Source of the DNA: Methyloprofundus sedimenti
Lineage (GTDB): Bacteria; Pseudomonadota; Gammaproteobacteria; Methylococcales; Methylomonadaceae
Direction: 5' to 3'
Assembly (NCBI RefSeq): GCF_002072955.1
Contig: NZ_LPUF01000001.1
Span: 95,001-159,000, forward strand
Length of the DNA: 64,000 nt
The notes under the pieces are model-generated. The model was not told the DNA's origin and ran no database searches. It saw only the letters and a program-made list of their open reading frames with translations. Position 1 is the stretch's first letter. Each line of letters starts with the position of its first letter. Made by a program: the position numbers and the translations under genes. This document shows, piece by piece, positions 13,122 to 29,254 of this stretch.

Positions 13122-14446
13122 GATTAGCCATCAGTTTTATATTTGCCTTGATACTCGCGCATAACGCATACGCCGGAAGTCAGGATCTGAATCAATTGTT
13201 ACGCGATGTCAAACAAAGACAGGCGCAAGAACGCAAGCTTAACAAAACTCGAGAAGCAGAGTTTCTGGCAGAAAAACAAAACCAGCAGCAATTATTACAA
13301 ACAGCTAAAGCAGAGTTGGCAAAACAGGAAAAATTAAGAGCCCAACTAAGTACACAGCTGGAAAGTAATGAGACATTACTAGCTGAAATGGAGACGCAGT
13401 TAAAAGAACGTAGTGGTGAACTAGGCGAATTATTTGGTGTTGCCAAACAAGCCGCAGGTGATTTACAAGCAAATTTACAAGGATCTATCATTTCTGCCCA
13501 ATATCCAGACCGCATTGAAGCATTAACCCGGATGACCGAGAGCAAGGCCTTGCCCATGATAAGTCAGCTGGAAAACTTATGGTTTACCTTGCAACAGGAA
13601 ATGACTGAATCGGGCAAAATTGTGCGTTTTACTCAGCAAATTCAGATACCAGGCGGCGAAAGACAAGAAGCTGAAATTACGCGTATTGGGGCCTTTAATG
13701 CGCTTGCCAATGGCGGCTACCTGAATTACGATGCCGATGCCAAAATACTGACCAGTCTGGCGCGTCAGCCTGAAGGCAAATATCTTGATTTGATAGATTC
13801 TTACAGAACTTCTGATGCCAAAAAAGCACCGCTTGGTATAGATCCAACACGCGGTGTTATGCTAAATATGTTGATTCAGACGCCAGATGCTCAAGAACGC
13901 ATCCAGCAAGGTGGAGTAGTTGGCTATATTATTTTGCTGATAGGTGCACTGGGTTTTTTATATGCGCTATTAAGGCTGAGTATATTGGTAGCCACCGGGC
14001 ATAAAATGAAGCAGCAAATGCATAATGATACGGCGATGGATAATAATCCTTTAGGGCGCGTATTAATTGCTACCGAACAAAGCCCTTCGCAAGAGGTGGC
14101 GGCGCTAGAGCTCATTCTTGACGAAGCTATTACCCGTGAAGTCCCAAATCTGGAGAAAGGACTATCCATGATTAAGTTGTTTGCCGCCGTTGCACCTTTA
14201 TTAGGATTACTAGGAACGGTAACCGGAATGATTGCGACCTTTCAGTCTATTAGTTTATTTGGTACCGGTGATCCCAAGCTTATGGCCGATGGTATTTCTC
14301 AAGCGCTAGTGACAACTATGCTCGGGTTGAGTGTGGCGATTCCGTTATTATTTTTGCATAATTTACTTGCTTCGCGCAGTAAAATGCTAGTGCAAATTCT
14401 GGATGAGCAAAGTGCTGGCTTAATGAGCCGACGTGCGGGAAAGTAA
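13118..14446 (+). CDS. ttpC: TtpC-type MotA/TolQ/ExbB proton-channel protein, TonB operon 1
   Basis: The protein has 442 residues. It has a signal peptide (cleavage near NAYA-GS), a periplasmic coiled coil (about 20-105) and a periplasmic domain to about 270. A transmembrane helix (VGYIILLIGALGFLYALL) and a C-terminal TolQ/ExbB domain follow; the latter includes FAAVAPLLGLLGTVTGMI and LFGTGDPKLMADGIS. This matches TtpC of Vibrio TonB2 systems, an extra motor component. It overlaps the genes on both sides (4 bp with the DUF3450-like gene, 1 bp with exbB). The paralogue is at 56391-57752. Confidence 0.9.
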   Translation: MRLAISFIFALILAHNAYAGSQDLNQLLRDVKQRQAQERKLNKTREAEFLAEKQNQQQLLQTAKAELAKQEKLRAQLSTQLESNETLLAEMETQLKERSGELGELFGVAKQAAGDLQANLQGSIISAQYPDRIEALTRMTESKALPMISQLENLWFTLQQEMTESGKIVRFTQQIQIPGGERQEAEITRIGAFNALANGGYLNYDADAKILTSLARQPEGKYLDLIDSYRTSDAKKAPLGIDPTRGVMLNMLIQTPDAQERIQQGGVVGYIILLIGALGFLYALLRLSILVATGHKMKQQMHNDTAMDNNPLGRVLIATEQSPSQEVAALELILDEAITREVPNLEKGLSMIKLFAAVAPLLGLLGTVTGMIATFQSISLFGTGDPKLMADGISQALVTTMLGLSVAIPLLFLHNLLASRSKMLVQILDEQSAGLMSRRAGK

Positions 14447-14970
14447 TGATTGAGTCTGTGGCATTTATAGACGATATTCGTAACTTCCTCTATGCAGGGG
14501 GTGATGTCTTATGGGTTATTTTAGGGGTTACCATCTGTTTATGGTGCCTGATTATCGAGCGTTTGCTATTTATTAAACAAAATTATCCATTTTTACGTGA
14601 TAGCTGCCTGGCGCTCTGGAATCAACGGACTGATAAAAATTCGGCCTACGCTTTATTTATCCGTCAGGAGCTGATTTCCGAGGTATTAATCAAGTTGAAC
14701 CGTGGCGTTGCAATTATAAAAGTGCTGATCGCCTTATGCCCTTTACTTGGATTATTAGGTACAGTAACAGGCATGATCCATGTATTTGATGTCATGGCCG
14801 TTACTGGTACAGGCAACGCGCGAGCTATGGCTGCTGGTATCTCTAAAGCGACCATTACGACCATGGCGGGTATGGTTATTGCTATTTCTGGCCTGTATTT
14901 CAGTAAACTTATAGAAGAGCGTGTCAGTGATGAATCGCATCACCTGGCAGATTTATTAAAATATCATTAA
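14446..14970 (+). CDS. exbB: ExbB proton channel, TonB operon 1
   Basis: The protein has 174 residues. The first helix is in GGDVLWVILGVTICLWCLII, and a cytoplasmic loop follows. Helices two and three are in LCPLLGLLGTVTGMIHVFD and TTMAGMVIAISGLYFS, with the family TGTGNARAMAAGIS motif between them. It starts on the A of the ttpC stop (TAATG). ExbB forms the inner-membrane proton channel with ExbD. A 254-bp stretch with palindromic repeats separates it from exbD, which is unusual in an otherwise overlapping operon. Confidence 0.92.
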   Translation: MIESVAFIDDIRNFLYAGGDVLWVILGVTICLWCLIIERLLFIKQNYPFLRDSCLALWNQRTDKNSAYALFIRQELISEVLIKLNRGVAIIKVLIALCPLLGLLGTVTGMIHVFDVMAVTGTGNARAMAAGISKATITTMAGMVIAISGLYFSKLIEERVSDESHHLADLLKYH

Positions 14971-15011
14971 GTAAGGAACGAGAATTTAATAATGCCCGAG
15001 TCTGACTTGTC

Positions 15012-15069
15012 TTTTGGCTTCACAGGCGCGTTATGCGCCCGCTTTCCAAACACGCCTGTGAAGCCAAAA
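15012..15069. repeat. 17-bp perfect inverted repeat between exbB and exbD
   Basis: TTTTGGCTTCACAGGCG (15012-15028) pairs with its complement at 15053-15069 around a 24-nt loop. It could act as a transcript-processing or attenuating structure that sets the exbB to exbD ratio, or be an inserted palindromic element. Confidence 0.7.
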
Positions 15070-15121
15070 TCCTGCGCCATACTTTCGGGTATTATTACTC
15101 CTGTTTTCGTGAAAGTATGTT

Positions 15122-15152
15122 GTTGGGGTTCGTTCCTCACCCACAACCTACG
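15122..15152. repeat. Partial copy of a dispersed GTAGGTTG-type palindromic repeat
   Basis: The segment reads as the reverse complement of half of the palindrome at 39425-39504, with a few changes. It supports the view that the exbB-exbD spacer was colonised by REP-like elements. Confidence 0.5.
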
Positions 15153-15224
15153 CCTTCGCGCTTTATAAATAGCGGACTAAGATCCGCTCTACAATTGATA
15201 CATACTTGAGAGATACAAAACACT

Positions 15225-15638
15225 ATGCGCCGTAGAGCCAATCGTTCCTCAGCAGAACAAAACGCAGATATAGATATGACTCCGATGCTGGATATCGTAT
15301 TTATCATGCTGATTTTTTTTATTGTGACAACTTCTTTCGTCAAAGAATCGGGTATTGATGTCAACCGTCCCAGTGCTAAAACCGGAGAAACCAAAGCGCA
15401 AGGCAATATTATTGTCGGTATAAAAGCAAATGGCGAAATCTGGATCGACAAACGCCAGGTCGATATACGCGCCGTTCGTGCCAATGTTTCGCGTTTACAC
15501 GCGGAAAACCCACTTGGCTCGGTGATTATTGCTGCCGACCGAGAAACTAAAACATATGTTTTAGTCGCTGTCATGGATCAGATTCGGTTGGCTGGTATTA
15601 TGAATGCCTCTATTGCAACGGAGTCCGAATCACAGTGA
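15225..15638 (+). CDS. exbD: ExbD/TolR-family protein, TonB operon 1
   Basis: The protein has 137 residues with a short cytoplasmic N-terminus (RRRANRSSAEQNADIDMTPM) and one transmembrane helix around LDIVFIMLIFFIVTTSFV. The helix carries the proton-path Asp in MLDIVF. A periplasmic domain ending in SIATESESQ follows. Its stop overlaps the tonB start by 4 bp. It is the stator partner of ExbB. The paralogue is at 55354-55758. Confidence 0.93.
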   Translation: MRRRANRSSAEQNADIDMTPMLDIVFIMLIFFIVTTSFVKESGIDVNRPSAKTGETKAQGNIIVGIKANGEIWIDKRQVDIRAVRANVSRLHAENPLGSVIIAADRETKTYVLVAVMDQIRLAGIMNASIATESESQ

Positions 15639-16270
15639 TGCGTATTGCATTCTCACTCTTTTCTGGAATCGCTATTGCGTTAGCCCTGTTCTGGGCGATG
15701 CAATATATGATTACTAATAATCAGCAAGGCTTTAAAAAAACCGATAGCATACGCATGACCGAATTTGTGCGCTTAAAACGTGAGTCTCAAATTCAAAGTA
15801 AAGAGCGTGTCGTTCCCGAAAAACCCAAGTCTAAAGAGCGTCCTGAACAACCCAAAATACAAATGCAATCCACTCAGGTAGCAAAAACAGTGACACCTGA
15901 TATGGATATGCCAAATCTGGATATTCCGCTACAAACCAATAGTTTTAATGGTTCGGTTTTAACCGGCTTACAAGTACAATCAGGCCCGGGAGAAATCAAC
16001 GCGAATGTCATTCCGCTGGTAAGAATTCCACCAACTTATCCTATGCGCGCAGCCAGCAGGCGTATAGAAGGCTGGGTAAAAGTAGAATTCACCATTACCA
16101 AAGAAGGTACGGTAACAGATGCTACTGTGGTTGCATCACAACCCAGCTCTATTTTTAATCGCGCCGCACTAAGAGCGATAAAACGCTGGAAATTCAAGCC
16201 GTATATTATCGCCGGTGAAGCCTATGAACAGCGAGCGATACAAACTATGGAATTTACACTCTCAAAATGA
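15635..16270 (+). CDS. tonB: TonB energy transducer, operon 1
   Basis: The protein has 211 residues. It has an N-terminal anchor helix (residues 5-27, including ALALFWAMQYMI), a Lys/Pro-rich periplasmic linker (RVVPEKPKSKERPEQPK) and a C-terminal TonB domain. The domain contains IPPTYPMRAASRRIEGWVKV and AALRAIKRWKFKPYI. This is the short TonB2-like form. It delivers proton-motive energy to TonB-dependent receptors; the two copper-type receptors 4-13 kb downstream are likely clients. It overlaps the TPR gene by 4 bp. Confidence 0.93.
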   Translation: MMRIAFSLFSGIAIALALFWAMQYMITNNQQGFKKTDSIRMTEFVRLKRESQIQSKERVVPEKPKSKERPEQPKIQMQSTQVAKTVTPDMDMPNLDIPLQTNSFNGSVLTGLQVQSGPGEINANVIPLVRIPPTYPMRAASRRIEGWVKVEFTITKEGTVTDATVVASQPSSIFNRAALRAIKRWKFKPYIIAGEAYEQRAIQTMEFTLSK

Positions 16271-17493
16271 ACAAAATAATGAGGAATAGCCTAAAAACCG
16301 GGCTAATCAGTCTTAGCCTGTTTATGCTAAACGTACCGCTGTATGCGGAAGATAACCCTCCCCCCATTGCGCCTGGTTTATACAAACAACTCAGCAAAGC
16401 AGAGACATTGATTGGCAAAAAAAAATATTCAGAAGCGCGTCAGAGATTAAATAAAATATTAGCTGACGTACAGGACAACAGCTATGAGCAGGCCATAATT
16501 TTGCGCAGTCTGGCCTCAATTTATACTTTTGAAAATCAATATAAACAATCAGCACAACTTCTAGAGCAATCTCTGGCGACAAATGCACTCACAGATACAC
16601 AGCAGCAGGAATCGATACTGAATTTAGGCCAGTTATATATGGCCACTGAACAATATAAAAAAGCGGTTGATACCTTAGCCCCCTGGTTAAACAAACACCC
16701 GAATACAACAAACACACAAGTCTGGATTCTGTTAGCCAACGGCTATGCGCAATTAAAGCAGTACCGTAAAGCCCTTCCTTATATTGAACATGTCATCAAA
16801 AACGCTAAAAAGCCGCAAACTAGCTGGCTAGAACTAAACCTGGCACTGTATTATGAAATACAAGACTACTCTTCTGCCGCCGGTATTTTAAAAAGATTAA
16901 TCACCCTGGAACCAGATAAACAAAATTATTGGCAACAACTCGCATCGATTTATCAGCAATTACAACAATATGACAACGCTCTAACGATTCAAAACCTTGC
17001 TTATAAAAAGGGGTTTCTTAATTCAGAATCCAAAAAATTAGCATTATTCAATTTATTTCTTTATAACAAACAGCCTTATCAGGCAGCCGTATTATTAGAA
17101 AAGGAACTTAACGCCAAAGGAATAAAGCAAACATCGGCAAACTGGGAACTACTTGCCAATGCCTGGACTAGTGCCAGGGAGTATAAAAATGCAATTAAAG
17201 CCTTGGATAAAGCCTCCACATTAAACGCATCGGGCCAACTATATTTACAACTCGGGCGAATTCATATCGAACAGGAATCATGGCAGGATGCGATATCGGC
17301 GATTAACAAAGCACTTAAAAAAGGCGGATTAAAACAATCTGGAGAAGCCTATATTCTGCTTGGAATTAGCTACTATGAAGCTGGACAATTACAAGCTGCA
17401 AATAAAGCATTTACTAATGCGCAAGACTACAGTAAAACCAGAAAATCGGCAGAACAATGGCTGGGCTATATTACAATGGATGCGCGAGGTTAA
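16267..17493 (+). CDS. TPR-repeat periplasmic protein, TonB operon 1
   Basis: The 408-residue protein has a signal peptide (ending near PLYA-ED) and about eight tandem helical pairs of TPR type, for example YKKAVDTLAPWLNKHPN and YRKALPYIEHVIKNAK. TPR proteins close TtpC-type TonB2 operons, where they are thought to support the periplasmic side of the complex. A full-length paralogue (415 residues) is at 53484-54731. The operon ends here without an obvious intrinsic terminator. Confidence 0.85.
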   Translation: MNKIMRNSLKTGLISLSLFMLNVPLYAEDNPPPIAPGLYKQLSKAETLIGKKKYSEARQRLNKILADVQDNSYEQAIILRSLASIYTFENQYKQSAQLLEQSLATNALTDTQQQESILNLGQLYMATEQYKKAVDTLAPWLNKHPNTTNTQVWILLANGYAQLKQYRKALPYIEHVIKNAKKPQTSWLELNLALYYEIQDYSSAAGILKRLITLEPDKQNYWQQLASIYQQLQQYDNALTIQNLAYKKGFLNSESKKLALFNLFLYNKQPYQAAVLLEKELNAKGIKQTSANWELLANAWTSAREYKNAIKALDKASTLNASGQLYLQLGRIHIEQESWQDAISAINKALKKGGLKQSGEAYILLGISYYEAGQLQAANKAFTNAQDYSKTRKSAEQWLGYITMDARG

Positions 17494-17847: not shown

Positions 17848-17897
17848 GCTTCTGACAAAATATCGCGCTTAATATACAGAGCAGTTTTAGGGCTAGT
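17848..17897 (+). repeat. 50-bp direct repeat, copy A, left of the copper region
   Basis: It matches 26837-26886 at 47 of 50 positions in the same orientation (core CTTAATATACAGAGCAGTT). The two copies bracket the five genes from 18188 to 25868. Confidence 0.8.
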
Positions 17898-17917
17898 GTT
17901 AGGCGACGCATCTGCTA

Positions 17918-18028
17918 GATCAAATTAGAGCAGTTGATAAATCACAACTAATAAAAGATCCTGGTGTAAAACTCAAGAAGAGTTATGCGGGTGTTTACAA
18001 GAAATGCCTGAATGCTAAATTGCAGTAA
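17918..18028 (+). pseudogene. Possible C-terminal scrap of a MazF/PemK-type toxin
   Basis: A 36-codon open stretch reads DQIRAVDKSQLIKDPGVKL and then ends in ...CLNAKLQ. DQIR...DKS-L is typical of the C-terminal part of MazF-family RNases. The N-terminal part is missing; the sequence joins directly to repeat A. It is too short for a firm call. Confidence 0.35.
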
Positions 18029-18187
18029 ATCGGGGATTTAAAGACCAAATAAAGACAGTTATAAATACAAACTTTCAGGTGTTTTCAATAGCAGCAACTC
18101 TGGCCGCGTGATATAGACTGTATTATCCTAGAAAACCTGTTATATAGATTCTGTAATTTAAGTTACATGCCGGAAGGGAAGAGTTTT

Positions 18188-19150
18188 TTAATAGGCGGAA
18201 AATTCTATAAGCCCCGTGTTACCTCCTGTACTGGAAACGACCTCAAGGCGAAGACTGGAAGTACTTTTGTTTAGTGCAAATGTATAGGCTTGCTGCGTAT
18301 CGGGAAGTTCAAATGGTCCTAAAACTGCATCATTATCCAGAATCAAATTAAAACTCAGTATTTTTGCACTGCCATCCGCCATGGATCGTGACCAGACCTG
18401 CACTGAATTAATCCAGGTACTTTTTGCTAATGCCACCTCAATAAATGCTTGATCTCCATCTCCAGCAGAGGACCAGGCGGTTGCAGATGAATCATCAAGT
18501 GCACTATTTGCTCCCCAATTCGCTTGATTACTTCCTCCACCATAATTACTACTGACCGATGCGACATAAGCCCCGTTATTTAACGACAAAAGATTTGCAT
18601 CAGCTGCGGCGCTTGCGCTTAACGTATTAAAACTAGCCACAGGGCTCCAGTAAAGTCGTCCTTGTGCATCACTTCCCTGAACACGGTAAAAATACGTACT
18701 ATCCGGATTTAAACCACTGAGTATCGGATTGTGCTCGGTTATGGCACCCCCATTCATGCTGCTATCGGTTGCAATACTACCAAACTCAAGACTGGTGCCA
18801 TACATTACCGAGCATGCCAGCGGAACCGTTGAGACAAAATGTAAGCGCGCATTAGTTGCTGTGATATCAGTTATCACAGGCCCATCACCTTCAGTCACAT
18901 TAGCAAGTTGGTATAAATTGGGCGGCACCGACTCAGGCTGTAACTCACCATAAGTAGTCACAGTAAAGGTCAGCGGATTATTTGCCTGTTTTTGCTGCTC
19001 AAGATTGGCCCAGTAATAATGAGTGTCTGCGCCCGATCCAAATTCAATAAGCGGTATTTGTAAAGCGAACTCGGCATCTAAACTGGCCGGTTGAGCAAAC
19101 ACAAGCGTTGAAACACAATATAGACTGATAACATTAATTTTTTTCAACAT
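18188..19150 (-). CDS. Secreted FN3 + discoidin-like domain protein
   Basis: The 320-residue protein has a signal peptide (ending near TLVFA-QP). A fibronectin-III/purple-phosphatase N-like domain (about 90-175) has ILSGLNPDSTYFYRVQGSD. A C-terminal jelly-roll part (about 185-320) includes WGANSALDDSSATAWSSAG and resembles F5/8 type C (discoidin) or galactose-binding-like folds. It is predicted to be periplasmic or extracellular. It is the last gene of the minus-strand series after the copper-type receptor. Binding of a surface glycan or cell-envelope ligand is possible; function is not established. Confidence 0.65.
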   Translation of the reverse strand: MLKKINVISLYCVSTLVFAQPASLDAEFALQIPLIEFGSGADTHYYWANLEQQKQANNPLTFTVTTYGELQPESVPPNLYQLANVTEGDGPVITDITATNARLHFVSTVPLACSVMYGTSLEFGSIATDSSMNGGAITEHNPILSGLNPDSTYFYRVQGSDAQGRLYWSPVASFNTLSASAAADANLLSLNNGAYVASVSSNYGGGSNQANWGANSALDDSSATAWSSAGDGDQAFIEVALAKSTWINSVQVWSRSMADGSAKILSFNLILDNDAVLGPFELPDTQQAYTFALNKSTSSLRLEVVSSTGGNTGLIEFSAY

Positions 19151-19298
19151 AATAGCCTGAGGAGGTTAACTGCGACTGAAAACCCGGTCATTGACCGGGC
19201 CAAAGTGAATTGGAGAGACTAAACCAGTCACAAAAAAATATTTTGGCTGAGCTATTGATAACTCAATAGCTCATTCTGGCAATTGCATTACTTTAGGC

Positions 19299-20075
19299 TT
19301 AATTGCACCCAGCCTGTTCTAACCAATCGTAAGCATGTCCAACATCCATTATTTCGCCGCTTGCTGGTAAATAATAGATATGGTTATCCATGGAAGAAAT
19401 ACCTACGTAGGCATTGGTACCTGAATAATAACGAAAATAGTAGGGTGGAAAAGTTTGGGAATTTGCAACGCCCTGCACAGGTGAAAATAAACCCGCAAAG
19501 TTATTTTCCGCCCAGTCAAATAAACAATCCGAATGTGTCATGTCGCCTTCGGCAACCCGAATTGTTTCTGATAAAATTAAATTCTCACCTCCCATGGGAA
19601 AATATACCGGATCATGCCAGGATAAATGATACATGCAGTGTCTTATACCCTTATTGTCTTGCATTAAAGCAAGAGAATTACAGTCCATATATCCCAATTG
19701 CTCTGTATCGGTTGGACCTAACGTGGGATCTTGCGCATCAAAATTAATGGCAACATAAATATTATTATTTATATTGGGAGAAGTCGCTATTTCGGTGGTA
19801 TTCATGTTGTAAGCAACCGCGGTGATCCCGCCTTTATTATCCAACATAGTTTCGAGTTGATAACGAACCGGCTCTATAGTCCCCATCAACGTATCGTCTA
19901 ATAGACCTTGAAGATTGCTTATCTGTTGAGTAGCGATATCATAATCAAATGTGCCATAGAAAATGGAATTATCAAAAAAAACCAGCTCTACCTGATAACG
20001 AATTGGCGCCGCCTGCACGGGTTTTAAGAAAAAAAATAGTGGAAATAACAAGATGATAGCTTTTAGTATTTTCAT
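19299..20075 (-). CDS. Secreted protein with C-terminal YYFRYY module, next to copper receptor 1
   Basis: The start at 20075 is chosen because a signal peptide (MKILKAIILLFPLFFFLKPV) and a GAGG Shine-Dalgarno sequence lie there; an upstream in-frame start (20150) adds an unlikely 25-residue leader. The mature protein is about 235 residues. The C-terminal 75 residues run from a Cys (DCLFDWAEN) through YYFRYYSGTNAYVGISSMDN to a final AGCN. They share the pattern Cys...YYFRYY...Y-GISS-D-H-Y-L...G...D-G...AGC with the CorA-like protein at 24873. The N-terminal part is beta-rich and unassigned. It sits directly downstream of the receptor gene and is probably co-expressed with it. Confidence 0.65.
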   Translation of the reverse strand: MKILKAIILLFPLFFFLKPVQAAPIRYQVELVFFDNSIFYGTFDYDIATQQISNLQGLLDDTLMGTIEPVRYQLETMLDNKGGITAVAYNMNTTEIATSPNINNNIYVAINFDAQDPTLGPTDTEQLGYMDCNSLALMQDNKGIRHCMYHLSWHDPVYFPMGGENLILSETIRVAEGDMTHSDCLFDWAENNFAGLFSPVQGVANSQTFPPYYFRYYSGTNAYVGISSMDNHIYYLPASGEIMDVGHAYDWLEQAGCN

Positions 20076-20124
20076 TTGAACCTCATAAAATAAAAAATTA
20101 AATCTGAGACTATAATCAGATCTT

Positions 20125-22311
20125 TTAATACTCAAGGGTAACCCCGACATAAACAGACCGCCCTTGACCTGGCAAGTTTTGTGTTTTTGGCTCGGATGAA
20201 CTCAAGGTCATCGCGTTCTGGTCGCCAATATAAACGCCCGACAACGGGTAGTAATATTGATGGTTCAGAATATTATCCACGCCAAAATCAACAGTCACAA
20301 ATTCCCACTGAAAACTGGTTTTGAAATTTAACAGAATATAAGAAGATGTTTCTAACTCATTTCTTACTTCTTGCACTTCATTTTTTGTATCAACAAATTG
20401 CATGTTAAACGTACTTTGCCAGCCTCCCAGTTTATGGTTTACCCCCCATGTAAAATTAAATGGCATCATATTATAAAGATTATCACCATCTGAACGTTTA
20501 CCACGTACATAACTCATAATGGTATTCGTTGAGAATTCGCCATAAGTTGGGCTTTCAAATAAGTTCATTTCGCCCGTTATATCCACACCCCAGAGGTAGG
20601 CATCATAATTTTCAAATGTCAGGTAGTAATAACCATTTCCCGGCTGTTTTCTACACTCCTGACAAAGATCGGCATCAATATAGTTTTCCACGTAGCTGAA
20701 AAACGGGGAAATTTCAAGATTCCACACTTGCTCATCACCAGAGTCAGAAAAATTAGCGGTAAAGCCAATATTATGTGCAGTCTCCATCTTTAAATCTATG
20801 TTACCTACATAACCATTACCATCACCAAACCAGCCTATCATGGTCATCGGCATTGGACTGATACTCCATGGATATAACTCCTGCACTGAAGGTGCACGAT
20901 TTTTTCGTGCGTAACCCAGGGTGTAATAACTCCAGTCATTGGGTGTATATTGAACAAGCATACTGATATCAAACGCATTAAAGTTACGTTCGTGATCCAA
21001 GGCATTAAATGCCAGTGCCTGTTCATAGTCAGTCAAAAGATAATTCGAGGTAATATTGTTATATCCCTGCACGTCGCCAGTATTCATCCACGTGCGATCG
21101 TAACGGAAACCCAGCATCGTTTTCCATGTATCTGTCCAGTATTTTTCCCATTCTGCATAAACACCAAAACGATTCCGGGTCGCATCATTCAGGTTGATAA
21201 AATCGTTGGGTCCCATCATGCTCGGAACCGTTGACGTTGCCGGCCAATAATCGTTGATGACACTGCCATGGAATTCACTGCCAAAGCGAAAGATATTGTC
21301 ATCTTCATCTGATGGCAATTCGAATTCCAGTTTATAGCCATAATTTTTGCCTCGCGTTTCCATAGGCATAAATATGGTCGCATCTCTATCTGGCAAATAA
21401 TCCATGGTATGACTGGTATGTTCCAAAAATAATATAGTGTCTACATTCCCCCAATCAAATAAACCGTTGTAGTGAATATTACCAAAGAGACTATCATTAT
21501 TGGTTAAATCCATTCTTGCCGTTGGAAAACCCTGGTATGGAATATGTTGCTGTCCACCTTTAATTTCTAGCAATTGGTCTTCGTAATTAAATGATAATGC
21601 GAATGCTTGATTGATGTTTTCATAATTCGTAGATTTAATCACAGTACCGTTGCCATCCTGATAATTCTTACTTTGAGTATCCGAGCCTGTGTAGTCAAGG
21701 CGAGCATATTCATTGGCAATGCCTAGTCCGACACTGCCACCAAAAGCATCACCATTACTGCGATAAAATGATGACAGTTTTCCATTTAATAAGAAATCTT
21801 CACCAGCTTCGGCAAACTTAGGCTTCGCAGATTTTACAGATATTGTTCCTGCAATACTGTCACCTCCCATTCTTACCGGCGTAATTCCTTTTAAAATGGC
21901 AATGCTACCGATATTACTGCGGTCAATGCTCGCTAAGGCAGGATTCATATGATTTGGACAAATTGAGTTGACAGTCATCCCATTAACCTCAATTTTGACA
22001 CGCGTGTCATTCAAACCACGAATAATAGGTATTGAAGAAACCCCACCCCCTGCTTGAAAGCTCATGCCAGCCGTGTCTTCGAGTAATTTTGCAGTATCAG
22101 AAACCTGGCTTTGCTTTTTTGCAATATCGTCTTCGTTAATGCTGTTTTGAGGGGAAACAGTAAGATTTTCGGTGTCAGCCTCAATAACCATATTATCAAG
22201 ATAAATTGCCTCTTCAGTAGGACTTGAATCCTCAATACTCTCATCTGCATAAACTACGTTAAAACACAGCAATATTGCTGTATTAAACAAAATTATTACT
22301 TCTTTTTTCAT
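20125..22311 (-). CDS. TonB-dependent receptor 1, OprC/NosA-like copper type
   Basis: This is a 728-residue outer-membrane receptor with a signal peptide, a plug domain (RGLNDTRVKIEVNGM, GGDSIAGTISVKS) and a 22-strand barrel ending in SVYVGVTLEY. Copper-ligand positions are visible: C118-PNH-M122 (SICPNHMNP) in the plug and H301-T-M303 (SHTMDY) in the barrel. OprC of Pseudomonas binds copper through Cys143, Met147, His323 and Met325, with almost the same spacing. It lies downstream of a di-heme peroxidase gene and upstream of a secreted protein gene on the same strand. Copper import energised by the nearby TonB operon is inferred. Confidence 0.88.
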   Translation of the reverse strand: MKKEVIILFNTAILLCFNVVYADESIEDSSPTEEAIYLDNMVIEADTENLTVSPQNSINEDDIAKKQSQVSDTAKLLEDTAGMSFQAGGGVSSIPIIRGLNDTRVKIEVNGMTVNSICPNHMNPALASIDRSNIGSIAILKGITPVRMGGDSIAGTISVKSAKPKFAEAGEDFLLNGKLSSFYRSNGDAFGGSVGLGIANEYARLDYTGSDTQSKNYQDGNGTVIKSTNYENINQAFALSFNYEDQLLEIKGGQQHIPYQGFPTARMDLTNNDSLFGNIHYNGLFDWGNVDTILFLEHTSHTMDYLPDRDATIFMPMETRGKNYGYKLEFELPSDEDDNIFRFGSEFHGSVINDYWPATSTVPSMMGPNDFINLNDATRNRFGVYAEWEKYWTDTWKTMLGFRYDRTWMNTGDVQGYNNITSNYLLTDYEQALAFNALDHERNFNAFDISMLVQYTPNDWSYYTLGYARKNRAPSVQELYPWSISPMPMTMIGWFGDGNGYVGNIDLKMETAHNIGFTANFSDSGDEQVWNLEISPFFSYVENYIDADLCQECRKQPGNGYYYLTFENYDAYLWGVDITGEMNLFESPTYGEFSTNTIMSYVRGKRSDGDNLYNMMPFNFTWGVNHKLGGWQSTFNMQFVDTKNEVQEVRNELETSSYILLNFKTSFQWEFVTVDFGVDNILNHQYYYPLSGVYIGDQNAMTLSSSEPKTQNLPGQGRSVYVGVTLEY

Positions 22312-22371
22312 TTGTTTGTTTCAGTGCTTAATTAAAGTTATATCGAAATCATATTTGCGATGGCTTTTAAT

Positions 22372-24549
22372 TTAGATTTTTCTTAAATAAGCGTCAAAAG
22401 GCTGTAATTCAGACTCTATTCCGGATGCGCCAGTCGCCGGCACAACTAGGAAGTCGTCTTTTGCCATGGGTAAATTAAAATGCTTAGGCGTTACACGTAA
22501 ATGATCACCATCGTGACCCTGCGGAATGATGAGCTCAGGATGATCAAACGGTGCACGTTGATAACGCACACGGTCATCAGTTAAGGTTTTTAAAAAGGCA
22601 ATCAGATCATGGCGATTTTTTTCAGAAAATTTGAGTCTAGGTAATGGAAACACCAAAGTGGTTTCTTTGGCATCGTTCATAAAATTTCCCCCTCTGGAAT
22701 AAAATTCAATCACCTGCTCCAGGTTTGCCATGCTTCCATTGTGCATATAGGGACCGGTCAATTCGATATTACGTAATGAAGGAATTTTAAAACTGGCATT
22801 TACTTCTGCGAGCATTTTATTGGTATCAGGTTTTTTCAGTTCCGCCTGCGCCGCTTGTATTGTCGGTAAAAAGGCATTTTTATCAGCGCTTAAAAAGCAG
22901 TTTTTGCTATCTTGCTGTTGCGGCTGAACGCCATCTTCAATGTTAAATACGCTCAGTGCTTTATAAGTTGGCTTAAAATTAACTGCAAACGGTATTTGAA
23001 AGTCACACGGGCGCACATGACGTACTGCATCATCCTTAACATCCTCATTCATACCGGCTAAAAATTGTAAATATTGTTTGCTAAATGACAATGGATTACC
23101 AAACTCATCTATACCGCCCAGCCCAATATCTGCCTCCTCTCTCGCGACACCGGTTGATGCAAAGCCAATATCGGAAAAAACGGTTAAGGCTTTGTTATGC
23201 ACAAAAAGTGGAATGCGGTTAACCACATTGGTGGTCGTGCTGATTTCGTCAAATACACTCGGATTACTCTTTGCCAGTGTCGCGTTGGCATCAATAGCTG
23301 CTGCAGTAAAATTAGGCCCTAAATGACAATGCGAACACAGATTAATGCGAAATTGTTCGAAACCATTTAATTCCTCTGCGCTTAAGTCAATGGGTAGATT
23401 ATCTTTATCGCGCCGACTTTGATCAAAAGGCGCGTTATCAGAAATCAGGGTACTTTCATAAAGCTGAATGGACAAACCAAAAAATAGCGCAAAATTTGCT
23501 TCCATTTGCTGATAAGGTTCGCCGCTTAATGGACTGCCAAATTTATTGGGCCCCTGATACGACCAATATTTGCTATTAAAAGCTTTTTTAATCAATGCAG
23601 CGTAAGTGGTATTAAGTCCGGGTTTTAAAGCTTGCTCATTGCTCAAGCTAAAAGGTGCAAGCACACTGTCATTCCAATGTACTCTCTGATTTTCTAGCGG
23701 CTGACGTGGCAAAAGCTTTCTGCCTATATCTTGCAGAGTACGCTGACTGCAACTCATTTCAGTGGTATTTAACGGTGGTGCAGTGGCAAGTGAAGCCAGG
23801 GACGCGTTAGTTAGATGCAGGCGTTCTTTGGTAACTGTGTTGGAATCATGCGCAACCCAAATTCCCGCGTCAGGATCGCGATCACCCCATGAATTACTGC
23901 CATTAAAAACATTATTCGCACGACCATCCCAAAAATTGCGATAATTAAAGACAGCGTTAATGACTGTGGGTGCATTTCTTGGTGTCACGCGTCGTGTCGC
24001 GAGCTTGCCAACATGAAAAACCTCTCCCGCTGATCGTGCACAATCTTCAAATACGCGCTTTTGAGAACTCACGCCTTTATATTCACCGCCAAATGTTCCT
24101 GCAGAACCGGTAACAAAATGGCTGTCATTGCTAACTGAACTGCTTTCTTGTAGTGGGTTTTGCAACTGGTAAAAAGGGAATTGTGCCGCTGAAAGAGATT
24201 GATTCACGGAAAATTTCGCTAACTGCTCTTTGCTTAAAGTCGTGGACTGTCCGCCAGGTGCCAACTGATTTTTTACCCTGCTATCCGCACCCGCATGGAA
24301 ATGACACGAAGCACACGCCATACCATCACTGCCGATATTAGCATCCCAAAACAAGGCTTTTCCTAAAACAATGGCAGTATCTTTATCAGCTATAATGGGA
24401 TCGGAGCCGTTTAATAACCCCGGAACAGTAGGGACTGGCAAATATTTTAAACTGATGGGCATAGGCCCAAATGACAAGGTATTTTCTGCATGAACTTGCA
24501 GAGAAAAAAGCAGAAGGGAAAGCAAAAACCAGCGCCATAAATAAAGCAT
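22372..24549 (-). CDS. Secreted di-heme cytochrome c peroxidase/MauG-family protein, CorB-like
   Basis: The 725-residue protein has a signal peptide (ending near LQVHA-EN). Two c-type heme sites are CASCH (residues 79-83) and CSHCH (near residue 400). The family block FKIPSLRNIELTGPYMHNGSM is near 600. It is longer than classical bacterial cytochrome c peroxidases (about 350 residues), as in surface-associated CCP/CorB proteins of methanotrophs. It follows the CorA-like gene on the same strand, as corB follows corA in Methylomicrobium album. Peroxidase activity or oxidative modification (for example Trp to kynurenine) of a surface copper protein is a family-based suggestion. Confidence 0.85.
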   Translation of the reverse strand: MLYLWRWFLLSLLLFSLQVHAENTLSFGPMPISLKYLPVPTVPGLLNGSDPIIADKDTAIVLGKALFWDANIGSDGMACASCHFHAGADSRVKNQLAPGGQSTTLSKEQLAKFSVNQSLSAAQFPFYQLQNPLQESSSVSNDSHFVTGSAGTFGGEYKGVSSQKRVFEDCARSAGEVFHVGKLATRRVTPRNAPTVINAVFNYRNFWDGRANNVFNGSNSWGDRDPDAGIWVAHDSNTVTKERLHLTNASLASLATAPPLNTTEMSCSQRTLQDIGRKLLPRQPLENQRVHWNDSVLAPFSLSNEQALKPGLNTTYAALIKKAFNSKYWSYQGPNKFGSPLSGEPYQQMEANFALFFGLSIQLYESTLISDNAPFDQSRRDKDNLPIDLSAEELNGFEQFRINLCSHCHLGPNFTAAAIDANATLAKSNPSVFDEISTTTNVVNRIPLFVHNKALTVFSDIGFASTGVAREEADIGLGGIDEFGNPLSFSKQYLQFLAGMNEDVKDDAVRHVRPCDFQIPFAVNFKPTYKALSVFNIEDGVQPQQQDSKNCFLSADKNAFLPTIQAAQAELKKPDTNKMLAEVNASFKIPSLRNIELTGPYMHNGSMANLEQVIEFYSRGGNFMNDAKETTLVFPLPRLKFSEKNRHDLIAFLKTLTDDRVRYQRAPFDHPELIIPQGHDGDHLRVTPKHFNLPMAKDDFLVVPATGASGIESELQPFDAYLRKI

Positions 24550-24801
24550 ATAAACTCCAACAGTATTGATTAAGTGCTGTTTGGTCTGTTAAAAATCAAT
24601 CAGATGCATGCGTTTCTGATTTTTTATTAAACCATGCTTTACGAGTAGATTAATGCCCAATATAACTTTAATGGATAATTCGCAAACAGCCGCGGATAAA
24701 TCTAAAATATAAGCAAAAATCAATCAATCTTCAAACAAAATTTCGACTCAGAAGAATCTACCTTGCAAATAAGCAACGCAAGAATGAGGGAACCACTGAA
24801 A

Positions 24802-24860
24802 AAGCATAGCCAAGGCCATAGGCGATGGCTATGGCTATGGCTATGGCTATGGCTATGCTT
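24802..24860 (-). terminator. Intrinsic terminator built partly from a hexamer repeat
   Basis: AAGCATAGCCA (24802-24812) and TGGCTATGCTT (24850-24860) form an 11-bp stem. On the minus strand a short T-run follows, 12 bp after the CorA-like stop. The right arm is part of a (ATGGCT)5 tract, so the stem can slip in register. Confidence 0.7.
24825..24857 (+). repeat. (ATGGCT)n microsatellite, five units plus a partial one
   Basis: Five perfect ATGGCT units (24825-24854) are followed by ATG. It is a candidate length-variable site inside the terminator between the CorA-like gene and the CCP gene. Confidence 0.85.
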
Positions 24861-24872
24861 AAGCGTAGTAGT

Positions 24873-25868
24873 TTATTTACATCCTGCTGCTGTTGTCATA
24901 GCAGCTACATCACCTAAATCACTCATTTCACCACCAACCTGAGACAGCGAGTACATATGACTATCTTCGGAAGAAATACCTAAATAATGACCTGTTTCTG
25001 CATAATAACGGAAGTAATATTGCATAAAATTTTGAGAAGTTAATCCAGCATGTGGGTAATCAGCAGGCTCTTGCTGTTCAGTATAATTCAATAAACAATC
25101 CGCTACCGATAGCGGTATCGCAGTGACTTTAACATCAATCGGTGTATCTTCACCCTCCGTGTTGGTACCGCCTAGAAAGATGGTATAAAAACCTGGCTGC
25201 AAATTAACCAAAGTTAGATTAGAGTAGTTAGTATTACCATCAGGGCCAGCATGATGCTGCACACTACCAAAAACGCCATTTTCATATTTGTTATCAATAC
25301 TGACATCATGCGCACCGGAATCAACATTGTCGTTCCAGAAATTGACATAGTCCGTCATTGAGCCATTCACATAACCTAATGTTTCAACAAGACCATTTTC
25401 TAATGTATTTCCTTCTAGTGAATCAACGACATCATTGTCGGTCGCCCAAACAAGTCCTGGCTTTCCTGGTTGTCCAACCTGGTTGAAAGCATGAATTGCA
25501 CCTTCAGCTCCATCTTTATCAGCCTTTCCAGATGCTTTTGAATCTGCTACAAAATTATTATCAGCTCTATACACCGTAAATCCGGGTGCATTAGTCGCTG
25601 CTGAAGAAAGAGATACCAATACGTCAGAAGACTGCATGACTTCAAAATTAAGCCAGGCCCCTTGCATACCCCAGGCGCGATTAGTTAACGCTGGGTTACT
25701 TGTATAGCCATTTTTACTGGCATTCGCGTTTATTGTTTGAATAGTCTTTCCTGGCTCAAGCATGTTATCGCCATTAAGCCATGTGCCTGCAGCATAAGAA
25801 GCAGAACTCAATACCAGGGAAGAAGCTATTAATCCAAGCTTTGCCGATAAATCAAAAGTTATTTTCAT
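24873..25868 (-). CDS. Secreted CorA/MopE-like candidate copper protein with C-terminal YYFRYY module
   Basis: The 331-residue protein has a signal peptide (ending near ASYA-AG). A beta-rich domain (about 27-250) contains several Trp (GTWLNGDNMLEPG, AWGMQGAWLNF) and a HH pair in SVQHHAGPDGN. A C-terminal module (about 255-331) with YYFRYYAETGHYLGISSEDS ends in AAGCK. The position upstream of a di-heme peroxidase matches corA-corB and mopE-SACCP pairs of methanotrophs, where the first protein is a surface copper(I) binder with a modified Trp. The CorA-like assignment rests on context and Trp/His content, not a confirmed match. It has its own downstream terminator. Confidence 0.5.
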   Translation of the reverse strand: MKITFDLSAKLGLIASSLVLSSASYAAGTWLNGDNMLEPGKTIQTINANASKNGYTSNPALTNRAWGMQGAWLNFEVMQSSDVLVSLSSAATNAPGFTVYRADNNFVADSKASGKADKDGAEGAIHAFNQVGQPGKPGLVWATDNDVVDSLEGNTLENGLVETLGYVNGSMTDYVNFWNDNVDSGAHDVSIDNKYENGVFGSVQHHAGPDGNTNYSNLTLVNLQPGFYTIFLGGTNTEGEDTPIDVKVTAIPLSVADCLLNYTEQQEPADYPHAGLTSQNFMQYYFRYYAETGHYLGISSEDSHMYSLSQVGGEMSDLGDVAAMTTAAGCK

Positions 25869-26538
25869 TTAAATTAATCTCCAAAAAGAATAAATGTTAA
25901 GTTATTAACCTCATTGAGGCGTGATCAAAAATTTATTGAACTATGTTATATAACTCTGGCTCCTGGATCATTGTCCATAAAGAGCTATAAAGCTCAAAAT
26001 GAGTCACCGTCAATTATTTACTGAAAACCAGAGGCGTCAGAGAATAAGACTTTTACCCAAAAAAGTGTTTACCATTTTTCCACCCTATCGCTGAGATAGC
26101 TAATACCGGCGTACCTTGCAAGTACATTTAGCAGAGAAAAATCAAAGCTACAGTAAACATCACCAGCAAACGTGTAGTGATGAACACCTCTTACGCGTAC
26201 AGATGAATGCTTTAAAGTCGTAACCTTGTTGCTAATCAACTGAAAATCTTGCATAAATTTAATCAAAACACGGGGCTATTATGCGTAACCGTCGTTAAAT
26301 TGACACTTATCGTGGGGGAATCCATTTACCCAGGTTCAAAACGTTTGCTATTTTCTACATTCCGCTTTTTTCTTCCCTGAATCAAACGAACTTAGTCGCG
26401 TATATAAAAGCAATTTATATGCCAAATTTTTATACTTCACCATTCTTTTTATTATCTAACTGTAAGTTAAGTACTTTATCTTATTCTTATTTACTGATAG
26501 CTTTTTAACCATTCATTGACTGACGTATATGCAACGTA
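25869..26538. other. Upstream region of the CorA-like gene, probably partly decayed coding
   Basis: A minus-strand frame at 26069-26266 reads VRGVHHYTFAGDVYCSFDFS without a recognisable start context or family. It may be a scrap of a lost gene. The remaining bases are AT-rich and probably include the promoter of the CorA-like gene. Confidence 0.3.
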
Positions 26539-26582
26539 AAATAGGTTATATGCCTTATATAAATATGGCAAATGACCTATTT
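26539..26582. promoter_or_regulatory. Inverted-repeat operator candidate upstream of the copper genes
   Basis: AAATAGGTTATATGCC (26539-26554) and GGCAAATGACCTATTT (26567-26582) match as inverted arms at 14 of 16 positions. The right arm shares CAAATGACCTATT with the palindrome at 12256, upstream of TonB operon 1. It lies about 670 bp from the CorA-like start, far for direct control, so the link is tentative. Confidence 0.4.
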
Positions 26583-26660
26583 ATGCGAATCACCGTATTA
26601 AATAGACCGAACAACCTGATTACTTTATGTCTATGGAATAAGACTCGATTGATCATTGAC

Positions 26661-26813
26661 TTAGGAACGCGCATGAAATAACATAAACAAGTTAAAAATC
26701 TGTATGATGGGCAAAGCAATAGCGCGCCCTTCAAGCTACTATATAAAGATGGGCACGTAAAAAACCTTTGCCCATCCTACAAGTTGCTCATATTATTTCG
26801 TGCATGTTCCTTA
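26661..26813. mobile_element. MITE-like palindromic element, about 150 bp
   Basis: The outer arms TTAGGAACGCGCATGAAATAA (26661-26681) and its near complement ending GTTCCTTA are continuous with an inner GATGGGCAAAG / CTTTGCCCATC palindrome. A partial relative lies at 48543-48652. No ORF is present. Confidence 0.6.
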
Positions 26814-26836
26814 CCTTCATTGATTCCCTGATCTGT

Positions 26837-26886
26837 GCTTCTGACAACATATCGTGCTTAATATACAGAGCAGTTCTAGGGCTAGT
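26837..26886 (+). repeat. 50-bp direct repeat, copy B, right of the copper region
   Basis: It matches 17848-17897 at 47 of 50 positions in the same orientation. It abuts the truncated end of an exbB pseudogene (26893-27060). Confidence 0.8.
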
Positions 26887-26892
26887 AGTAAT

Positions 26893-27060
26893 AACTACGG
26901 CATTGCTCAAGATATTTTTTTGTAATTCAGGATAGACGAATTAATAAGAAAGTAGTCGTTCACGGATAAGGCTTCATAAATAAATCGACACAAACAGGAT
27001 AATCCATAAGATGTCTCCACCACTTTTTAAAAACTCAGATAAAGTATCCAATAGTCCCAT
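26893..27060 (-). pseudogene. exbB: Truncated exbB with two internal stops
   Basis: Starting at an ATG (27060), the frame reads MGLLDTLSEFLKSGGDILWI and so on. It then reads SIYL-stop-SLIRERLLSY-stop-FVYPELQKNIL. This aligns with intact ExbB of operon 1 (GGDVLWVILGVTICLWCLIIERL); the first stop (TGA) falls where a Trp (TGG) is expected. The copy breaks off near direct repeat B. It lies directly downstream of receptor 2 on the same strand, which suggests that a TonB operon once followed this receptor. Confidence 0.75.
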
Positions 27061-27148
27061 TTTTGGATTTTCAGTTTTTGATGCATACTGCGCCTTATAT
27101 TTTAGCCAGACGTCCCTGTCGAACAGGCTAAATAAAACAGGTAACTTG

Positions 27149-29254
27149 TTACCAATCGTAACTCAAAGTGGCATAAAAGTTCCTTCCTTGTCCAGGCAAA
27201 TGCTGACCAATTGCTGTGCCATCATTGATAGGATTTCGATTCAAGCCATTAAGGTGAATCCGGTATCCCTTATCAAGCAGGTTTTCAATACCAAAACCTA
27301 CTTGCAAACCTTGCAAATACTTATATTGAGGGCGATATTGCATACGTAAGTTCCAAAGGATATAGCCGGCTGTCGGAGGCTCATCATTATATGCAGCTGT
27401 TTTTGTCTGTTTTCCGTAACCGACCAATTCAGTCCCCGCTAGCCATTCTGGTGTATCATAAAAAAAGCTGATTTTCCCATTGACTGGCGCTATTCGATAT
27501 AAATTATCTTTAGCATCTGTTCGCTCACCACGGACATAGCTGAGCAAGAAATCAATACGCCAATCTTCCAGAAACCGATAACCTGCCTCCATGTCTACTC
27601 CATACAATTGGGCATTAATATTGCTAAATTCCAGAGTCGTAGGGTCAATAGCCAGAGCGGCCTGATTTTGTGTTGGCGTTCCCTGAATATAATTATCTAC
27701 ATAGCGATAAAAAGCTCTAGGGGTTAAATACATCTCTTTTCCTTGCCAATCAAAACCTAATTCAACTTGATAAGATGTTTCAGGTGTTAGATCTACATTA
27801 CCAATATAATTGCGTCCATCGGCCAGACCACCTGTCGCATTCAGTGGCAGCCATCCGTAACGTTCCTGATAAGAAGGAGATCGAGTTTTTCTGCCAAACC
27901 CTAATTCAATAGCCATATCAGAACTTAAGTAATGGGTCAATGCAGCGACCACATCCAGATTGACATCATTTTTGAGCCGGTCACTTGCATTAAAATCAGC
28001 TGCCAGCTGTGTACCTGGTTTTCCAGGTGCAAAGATTGGGGCACCTGTTCCACTGACAGTACCTGCATTCATCCTAACCCAGTTTAACCGGGTACCTATT
28101 TCAAGAGCCCAATCCTGAACTAAATCTCCTTTCCATTCTGTAAAAAAACCATAGCGGTCACGTGTTACATCATTAAAGTTATTTATCTTAAATGGTTGAT
28201 TAAACGGGTTCGTAATCACCGCATTATGTTCAATATTATCGCCATCAACGCCGAGTAATAAATTGCCCTCAAAGAGCGGGATATCAAAAGTTGCTTTATA
28301 GCCAAAACCTTCAGCAGTATTATCTGACTGACGGCGCGCGGGTTGAGCAACATTACCTCGCAGGGTATAGTTATTCATTTGGTGCTCAACATCCTGATAG
28401 CTAAATTCAGTGGTCAATTTATATTTATCCGCTATCAAGCCATTGTAATTCAAGTTGGTAACACCACCATTGGAATAAACAATATCCATCGGCAAAGAGG
28501 GCGTTCCCGATAGATGGGTATCATTATAATTATATCCAATATCAAACTGATGATTCTCGTCGTCCGTTTGAAAACCATAGCCAACTGTGCCTACATTACG
28601 TTCATAACTGCTATCCCTGTTAACGCCTTCAGACCAGGCAAAACTGTCACCCGCTTCACGACTACCTCCCCCGTGAATCTTATGATTCTGGTTGGCAATA
28701 TTGGCAAATAAGCTCACATAATAGCCAGTATTAACTGAGCTATAGCCATTTGACGTTCTACCGGAAAATAAAATATCGTCATCTACAGCGAATTCACCAC
28801 TCCGCGTCTTCTGAACTATATTTCCACCTAACGTTTCTATACCACTACTCACTGAGGCAATGCCGCGCTTGACACTTAATACTTCAGTCAACACTGCAGG
28901 GACATGACTTAAAGGCGCATCCATGGCATTTGAACAGGCCGATTTATAGCTCGTTCCATCAGTAATAACATTTACACGATCGCCAAAAAGTCCACGGTAC
29001 TGTGCAATTCCAGTTAAAGGACCATTTGAGTTTACATTGGCGCCCGGCACTTTATGCAATAAAACGGCTGCATCTCCTGCTCCGCCCATATCGGGTTTCA
29101 CTCCAACCGTTCCAGGGGTCAAAATTTCTCCCTCAATAAACATGGTTGGTAAAATTTCTTTATCAGCATCGGCTAAATCTTGCGCATAGACAGGCATTGT
29201 GCCACCAGCTATCATCAGACCAGCAGATAGATATTTAATTTTTCGTTGTTTCAT
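27149..29254 (-). CDS. TonB-dependent receptor 2, OprC-like copper type
   Basis: The 701-residue receptor has a signal peptide (ending near VYAQD), a plug with GLFGDRVNVITDGTSYKSAC and a barrel ending in FYATLSYDW. The copper-ligand pattern is again present: C107-SNA-M111 (SACSNAMDA) and H291-Q-M293 (VEHQMNN), 180 residues apart as in OprC (176). The sequence is otherwise divergent from receptor 1. The gene is followed by an exbB relic and preceded divergently by an FNR/CRP-type regulator. Copper is the likely cargo; another soft metal or a metallophore is possible. Confidence 0.85.
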   Translation of the reverse strand: MKQRKIKYLSAGLMIAGGTMPVYAQDLADADKEILPTMFIEGEILTPGTVGVKPDMGGAGDAAVLLHKVPGANVNSNGPLTGIAQYRGLFGDRVNVITDGTSYKSACSNAMDAPLSHVPAVLTEVLSVKRGIASVSSGIETLGGNIVQKTRSGEFAVDDDILFSGRTSNGYSSVNTGYYVSLFANIANQNHKIHGGGSREAGDSFAWSEGVNRDSSYERNVGTVGYGFQTDDENHQFDIGYNYNDTHLSGTPSLPMDIVYSNGGVTNLNYNGLIADKYKLTTEFSYQDVEHQMNNYTLRGNVAQPARRQSDNTAEGFGYKATFDIPLFEGNLLLGVDGDNIEHNAVITNPFNQPFKINNFNDVTRDRYGFFTEWKGDLVQDWALEIGTRLNWVRMNAGTVSGTGAPIFAPGKPGTQLAADFNASDRLKNDVNLDVVAALTHYLSSDMAIELGFGRKTRSPSYQERYGWLPLNATGGLADGRNYIGNVDLTPETSYQVELGFDWQGKEMYLTPRAFYRYVDNYIQGTPTQNQAALAIDPTTLEFSNINAQLYGVDMEAGYRFLEDWRIDFLLSYVRGERTDAKDNLYRIAPVNGKISFFYDTPEWLAGTELVGYGKQTKTAAYNDEPPTAGYILWNLRMQYRPQYKYLQGLQVGFGIENLLDKGYRIHLNGLNRNPINDGTAIGQHLPGQGRNFYATLSYDW

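Follow-up and report, generated by a model that had tools for sequence, protein, structure and literature searches.

A variant CorA/CorB gene set joined to an OprC-type receptor gene, with a so far undescribed C-terminal module on its two predicted secreted proteins, in Methyloprofundus sedimenti

The DNA analysed here is a window of 64,000 nucleotides from Methyloprofundus sedimenti (contig NZ_LPUF01000001.1, positions 95,001 to 159,000), whose genome of 4.29 Mb (G000) encodes a particulate methane monooxygenase (pMMO)-type subunit B. Because of this gene, and because the nearest named relatives by the CorA-like protein described below are metagenome-assembled genomes (MAGs) of Methylococcaceae, the host is taken to be a methanotroph. 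The core of the locus consists of four minus-strand genes, running from 25868 to 19299, which encode a CorA-like secreted protein, a CorB-type di-heme peroxidase, an OprC-type TonB-dependent receptor and a second secreted protein that ends in the same C-terminal module as the first (Table 1). Judged from the sequence, this is a variant CorA/CorB set joined to an OprC-type receptor, with a so far undescribed end module on two secreted proteins. Going down from 24873 to 19150, successive genes of this strand are separated by 323, 60, 49 and 148 bases; promoter-like and terminator-like sites were about equal in number to those in shuffled sequence. The original prediction, made from the letters of the window, had placed a CorA-like protein, a di-heme cytochrome c peroxidase (CCP), a copper-type receptor, a second secreted protein and an FN3/discoidin protein on one strand. 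All of these open reading frames (ORFs) are present on the minus strand, and the second receptor gene, expected 1.3 kb further on, lies 1280 bases past the CorA-like gene. A TonB operon announced 0.7 kb to the left stands at that distance (694 bases from 18188), but it is convergent and not co-directional.

Table 1. Features of the locus in window coordinates
Feature	Coordinates	Strand	Evidence
CorA-like secreted protein, 331 amino acids (aa)	24873..25868	-	Foldseek, hhalign, site alignment
C-terminal module of the CorA-like protein	24876..25109	-	module profile, E 7.1e-30
CorB-type di-heme cytochrome c peroxidase, 725 aa	22372..24549	-	CCP_MauG 3.7e-17, two CxxCH
OprC-type TonB-dependent receptor, 728 aa	20125..22311	-	OprC in PDB, E 6.6e-16
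Second module-bearing secreted protein, 258 aa from corrected start	19299..20075	-	conserved motif, receptor adjacency
C-terminal module of the second protein	19302..19538	-	module profile, E 2.0e-35
FN3-like and discoidin (F5/8 type C) secreted protein, accessory	18188..19150	-	Pfam; F5_F8_type_C slightly below cut-off
Second OprC-type receptor, outside the conserved set	27149..29254	-	OprC in PDB, E 1.4e-22, residues 58-699
TtpC-type TonB operon, convergent neighbour	12342..17493	+	ORFs; 442-aa ExbB-like protein

Eleven CorA-like genes whose products end in the module (module-tailed) were found. At all eight of their loci in which the contig continues (the window, G026, G074, G052, L119, L120, L121 and L125), the peroxidase, receptor and second-protein genes follow in this order, with the qualification that the L121 contig stops within the second-protein gene and that the G026 peroxidase gene is broken. 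At the other three loci, the remainder of the set (G093) or at least the second-protein gene (G099) is found on a separate contig, or the contig stops just past the CorA-like gene (L118). Synteny in Methylococcales had been named beforehand as a test able to refute the original prediction, and the four core genes held together. At 25 distinct loci, Nitrosomonas marina included, the CorA-like protein has a PEP-CTERM-like tail at the position of the module, and neither the receptor nor a module-bearing second protein was found at any of them within the fetched stretches, several of which are short. This count leaves aside duplicate entries of one genome record, L258, whose tail is truncated, and L127, the CorA-like protein of which is the same as that of G103; it includes both L132, which shows no di-heme peroxidase, and L136, which derive from one MAG. 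The L127 contig, binned as Desulfuromonas, shares its CorA-like protein and neighbours with a Methylococcaceae MAG (L128) of similar isolate name, and this match is probably a binning error.

Six of the 151 genomes sampled from the order have a module-tailed gene, all of them within the nine that have a strong second-protein match (E-value of 6e-57 or better), which gives a hypergeometric probability of 5.6e-9, uncorrected for relatedness. G126 and the PEP-tailed G103, with matches of about 1e-11, were left out of the nine; counting them, 11 of 151 genomes have a second-protein match. In a whole-order set of 311 genomes, 33 had a CorA-like gene and no module-tailed gene appeared beyond those already counted, and at the six PEP-tailed loci new in this wider set (L250, L252, L253, L254, L256 and L257) the receptor and second protein were not seen. 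This wider check is only partly independent of the first, and two G641 matches (C307; C71 near 16136) were left out of it. The receptor and second protein occur without a CorA-like gene in G114, G098 and G082.

The module comprises about 78 residues with two conserved cysteines, arranged as helix, strands and helix, and tandem copies occur. Searches against Pfam and NCBIfam gave weak, scattered matches only. A profile made from 23 copies matched 22 of the 151 order genomes (E≤1e-4; as many as 22 matches in a genome) but, at E≤1e-8, only 1 of the 397 genomes sampled from elsewhere in the phylum, and the claim that the module is shared beyond chance is borne out by this distribution. The source genome itself has five copies at E≤1e-4, the best two of which are both in the island, 5.3 kb apart. 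The module ends no more than five residues from the stop codon in 41 of the 45 distinct module proteins examined (those in the fetched loci, not all profile matches), and the copy in the CorA-like protein of the window reaches the stop. The PEP-CTERM signature (a short PEP-like motif, a hydrophobic stretch and a basic end) is absent from both module proteins of the window. Among seven CorA-like relatives searched with NCBIfam, two have PEP-like tails that pass the TIGR03370 or TIGR02595 cut-off, four match more weakly and one does not match; the other tails were assigned by eye. PEP-CTERM-like tails, also judged by eye, were found in divergent second-protein homologues of G126, where they flank a 55% receptor orthologue, and of G103 and G052. 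Since such tails stand at the place of the module in relatives of both the CorA-like and the second protein, the module is probably a substitute for a sorting or anchoring tag, and this same-position exchange points to a probable role as a surface sorting or anchoring domain.

The main rival to a sorting or anchoring role is a function in docking or carbohydrate binding, the exchange with PEP-CTERM tails being incidental to fusion events; this reading we regard as possible without being probable. The folded, two-cysteine nature of the domain, its tandem copies and its N-terminal position in at least three proteins would suit it, as would the fact that 4 of the 23 module copies weakly match choline-binding repeats (best E 0.0043). 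The placement next to the stop codon in 41 of 45 proteins and the occurrence of the same tail exchange in two unrelated domain families of one locus speak against it.

The CorA-like protein has a signal-peptide-like N-terminus, a beta-rich domain and, from about residue 254, the module. NCBIfam gives it no name, and a PDB sequence search returned cytochrome matches only, which were judged to be due to chance. When its AlphaFold model (mean predicted local distance difference test, pLDDT, of 74) was compared with known structures by Foldseek, the top three of 624 matches were chains of CorA (4bz4), the best of them with an E-value of 7.5e-4 and a probability of 1.00. Alignment of 17 CorA-like with 17 CorA proteins by hhalign gave an E-value of 4e-5. 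Two of the 17 CorA-like family members match PF18252 (CorA/MopE) weakly (best 0.007), and the relative at L250 matched a CorA profile at 3.5e-6 in a search restricted to the ORFs of that locus. Homology of the CorA-like protein to CorA is thus supported by predicted fold and by profile. CorA itself (PF18252) is above the cut-off in 37 of the 151 genomes of the order, G000 not being among them, and no PF18252 match was found in G000 at E≤0.01. Among the 17 CorA-like genomes in this sample, true CorA and a CorA-like gene occur together only in G103.

The predicted copper-site residues of the CorA-like protein are W66, M68 and H126, those of CorA being W62, H64 and H114 in the numbering of PMC3912023. 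In a joint alignment of 34 rows, the tryptophan that forms kynurenine is a single column throughout, with W66 in the CorA column, and H126 aligns with the second CorA histidine, which is present in 16 of the 17 CorA rows. Two residues after the tryptophan, histidine stands in all 17 CorA rows, whereas the CorA-like family has methionine in 12 and histidine in 5 of 17, the first histidine ligand (H64 of CorA) being replaced by Met68 in the window protein. The 17 CorA rows were chosen from a WxH listing, and WxH is at the site in 29 of the 30 listed CorA loci, the remaining one being a partial contig. Across 43 CorA-like proteins (near copies included), W66 is found in 41 and H126 in 42, and residue 68 is Met in 26 of them, His in 15, and Pro and Val in one each; the WxH motif is present in 14 of the 43, and the W-M-H site in all 11 module-tailed rows. 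In a tree built from 36 members of the family plus 6 CorA rows, the 11 module-tailed proteins form one clade (support 100/99), nested within a larger clade of 25 (98/99) in which most proteins have the Met site. Because of this nesting, the His site and the PEP-like tail look ancestral, in a tree the root of which depends on the distant CorA rows.

With the loss of the histidine, the CorA-like protein might no longer bind copper and might serve as a peroxidase substrate or as a redox or adhesion protein, leaving copper to the receptor and the second protein; we consider this unlikely. His68 is indeed replaced in 28 and W66 in 2 of the 43 family proteins, and peroxidases of the family also adjoin other PEP-CTERM-tailed families unlike CorA, but W66 and H126 are near invariant although CorA-like relatives drop to 31% identity. 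Moreover, methionine is a usual ligand of Cu(I).

The peroxidase encoded at 22372 has the CxxCH motifs CASCH and CSHCH within a protein that contains a CCP_MauG domain. Its best-scoring relatives in the 151 genomes of the order adjoin CorA-like genes, and the peroxidases beside true CorA at the two loci mapped (L184 and L183) are 43% and 46% identical to it, which places the enzyme in the CorB type. CorB-type peroxidases of other Methylococcales (L177-L182, L185) stand beside at least two more PEP-CTERM-tailed families unlike CorA, which are possible further substrates of such enzymes. In the ammonia oxidiser Nitrosomonas marina (two strains; L139, L140), two CorA-like copies with canonical PEP-CTERM tails lie upstream of a CorB-type peroxidase gene, and at L136 (783-5426) four consecutive CorA-like paralogues, some with altered site residues, are found ahead of one peroxidase gene. 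The G026 locus (L040:8323-15668) may be decaying: its peroxidase gene is split around a 452-aa ORF and its CorA-like gene has stops ahead of the mature part.

The gene of the second secreted protein most likely starts at 20075 and not at 20150, since methionine 26 is invariant in 9/9 rows and a ribosome-site-like GAGG lies upstream; the 49 bases that separate it from the receptor gene are counted from this start. The protein consists of an N-domain with a conserved DC...M...CM motif followed by the module, and C157, M163, C172 and M173 (numbered from 20150) are invariant in 9/9 rows. Its gene adjoins the receptor gene at 12/12 loci with visible surroundings, the window included; G099, which has a masked stretch in its second-protein contig, is not in this count. 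In G103 (L206:656-2065), the N-domain was found inside a longer ORF, together with other stretches of no assigned family, near a CorB-type peroxidase and a fragment of true CorA, which links it to the CorA/CorB system.

The copper site of OprC is described as a CxxxM motif in the plug and an HxM motif in the barrel (PMC8610252). In the 20125 receptor, CPNHM begins at residue 118 and HTM at residue 301, and both motifs are kept in 10/10 aligned orthologues, the window included. In the 27149 receptor, CSNAM and HQM both align to OprC; in 20125 the plug motif was aligned directly to OprC, while its HxM was placed only via 27149 and the orthologues. Seven PDB sequences matched 20125, the top six being OprC. 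Neither receptor reached the TIGR01778 cut-off of 472.45 bits (117.6 for 20125 and 175.3 for 27149). That the receptor takes up a copper chelate or another metal complex in place of ionic copper appears decidedly improbable, for although 20125 scores higher with two haem-type receptor models, at 151 and 145 bits, than with the copper one, at 118 bits, each score being under cut-off, the best six of its seven PDB matches are OprC and CxxxM and HxM stand in every aligned orthologue. The identities first proposed for these products have therefore been upheld: CorA-like by fold and profile matches, CorB-like through relatives beside both CorA-like genes and true CorA, and copper-type for both receptors through OprC matches in the PDB and the presence of CxxxM and HxM.

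Collectively, the homology, the site residues, the gene order, the tail exchange and the single module-tailed clade are the basis on which we consider it probable that the set is a methanotroph cell-surface copper-acquisition operon on the CorA/CorB plan. By analogy with CorA and MopE, the CorB-type di-heme enzyme would oxidise W66 of the CorA-like protein to kynurenine, and the protein would bind a copper ion near kynurenine 66 via Met68 and His126, in a Met-for-His variant of the CorA site. The constant adjacency of their genes suggests that the second secreted protein, with its Cys/Met motif, could pass copper to the OprC-type receptor, which, as in OprC, would bring it in through the CxxxM-HxM site using TonB energy. 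The shared module may hold both secreted proteins at the cell surface, which is the job of the PEP-CTERM tail in their relatives. With more doubt than confidence, we further suggest that a lineage-restricted surface-sorting or anchoring module of Methylococcales took the place of PEP-CTERM tails in two unrelated protein families encoded in a single copper-uptake operon, accompanying a CorA variant that would hold copper via kynurenine, methionine and histidine.

Several observations weigh against the copper-acquisition reading. The CorA-like protein of the window has no Pfam match, PF18252 included; the Foldseek match to CorA has a template-modelling score of only 0.31 by query and a root-mean-square deviation of 9.6 with the full-length model, and the hhalign probability was only 70. 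Methionine in place of histidine might weaken or abolish copper binding. Co-transcription of the CorA-like and peroxidase genes is uncertain because of the 323-base gap between them. As regards the module, 2 of the 45 proteins carry it ahead of a lipase-like domain, a 685-aa protein of the source genome (L173) has a weak double match close to its N-terminus, and the enzymes on which it is also found include amidohydrolases, a trypsin-like protease, a phosphoesterase and a CCP. Exosortase presence was rejected as the cause of tail type, since exosortase is present in both groups, in 5/6 module-tailed genomes (G074 had no match) and in 11/11 PEP-tailed genomes (weakly in G103). A Methylomonas STC_4 MAG has both a module-tailed (L121) and a PEP-tailed (L135) locus, so the tails are split by locus and not by genome. 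Finally, the structure predicted for the second protein reaches a pLDDT of only 56, and the PEP-tailed homologue at L207 is without the cysteines of the motif.

In cultured strains, expression of CorA and CorB tracks copper, and in two of the three strains tested the corA mutants showed no growth or poor growth on methane (PMC3912023, PMC11784148). Like CorA/CorB of Methylomicrobium album BG8 (PMC3912023) and MopE/SACCP of Methylococcus capsulatus, the present set has a secreted beta-rich protein, a tryptophan of the kynurenine-forming kind, a histidine ligand and an adjoining CorB-type di-heme peroxidase; unlike those systems as they are described, it has methionine for the first histidine, the C-terminal module, the linked receptor and second protein, and no Pfam CorA match. 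The receptors share the plug CxxxM and barrel HxM with the TonB-dependent OprC/NosA (PMC8610252) but fall under the TIGR01778 cut-off, and 20125 has a module-bearing secreted protein as its partner. The MbnP/MbnH pair, which with MbnT of methanobactin loci (PMC3621798) likewise combines a partner protein and a di-heme enzyme, often near a TonB-dependent receptor, was rejected, since no MbnP model matched and the peroxidase scored 104 bits against the MbnH (TIGR04039) cut-off of 362.85; this comparison covered MbnP and MbnH, with the methanobactin genes outside the search. ZepA (PMC10957091) is also an exported metal-handling protein, with a PEP-CTERM tail and with receptor genes near some zepA genes, but its metal is zinc and the portions of that account consulted describe no tail exchange; the two are set apart here by description, not by sequence. 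As in PEP-CTERM/exosortase sorting (PMC1569441), the module is placed C-terminally on many secreted proteins per genome, but it is a folded domain and no sortase partner was identified for it. In the open-access literature we found no paper with this operon, with a Met-site CorA variant or with the module, nor one linking CorA-type proteins to an outer-membrane copper receptor. The gene set makes such a link, bears on copper supply for pMMO in methanotrophs without classical CorA and can be tested as a definite unit; the copper site expected from it would be unusual, and its module, with as many as 22 matches in a single genome, is a possible new surface tag.

CorA/CorB are reported to work together with a TonB-ExbB-ExbD system (PMC13274458, from 2026). 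The TtpC-type operon beside the island had been proposed to be dedicated to it, and this was rejected: its 442-aa ExbB-like protein occurs in 18/18 genomes of the genus and is thus genus core, and the operon and the receptor pair are some 2.6 Mb apart on the contig in G114 and on separate contigs in G098, so the placement of the operon here is probably due to chance. A dedicated motor does exist in relatives, since a distinct TonB-ExbB-ExbD set lies within the full set in L120, between peroxidase and receptor, and adjoins the receptor and the second protein or homologues of the latter in G082 and G126, both without a CorA-like gene. The 27149 receptor and the FN3/discoidin gene, originally counted as parts of the island, are not constant across loci: no orthologue of the former was found next to the set at the mapped loci, and the latter adjoins the full set in L119 and the receptor and second protein in G114 but was not seen at other loci. 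The window also encodes a second TtpC-type protein (56418-57680), which is 41% identical to that encoded at 13118-14446.

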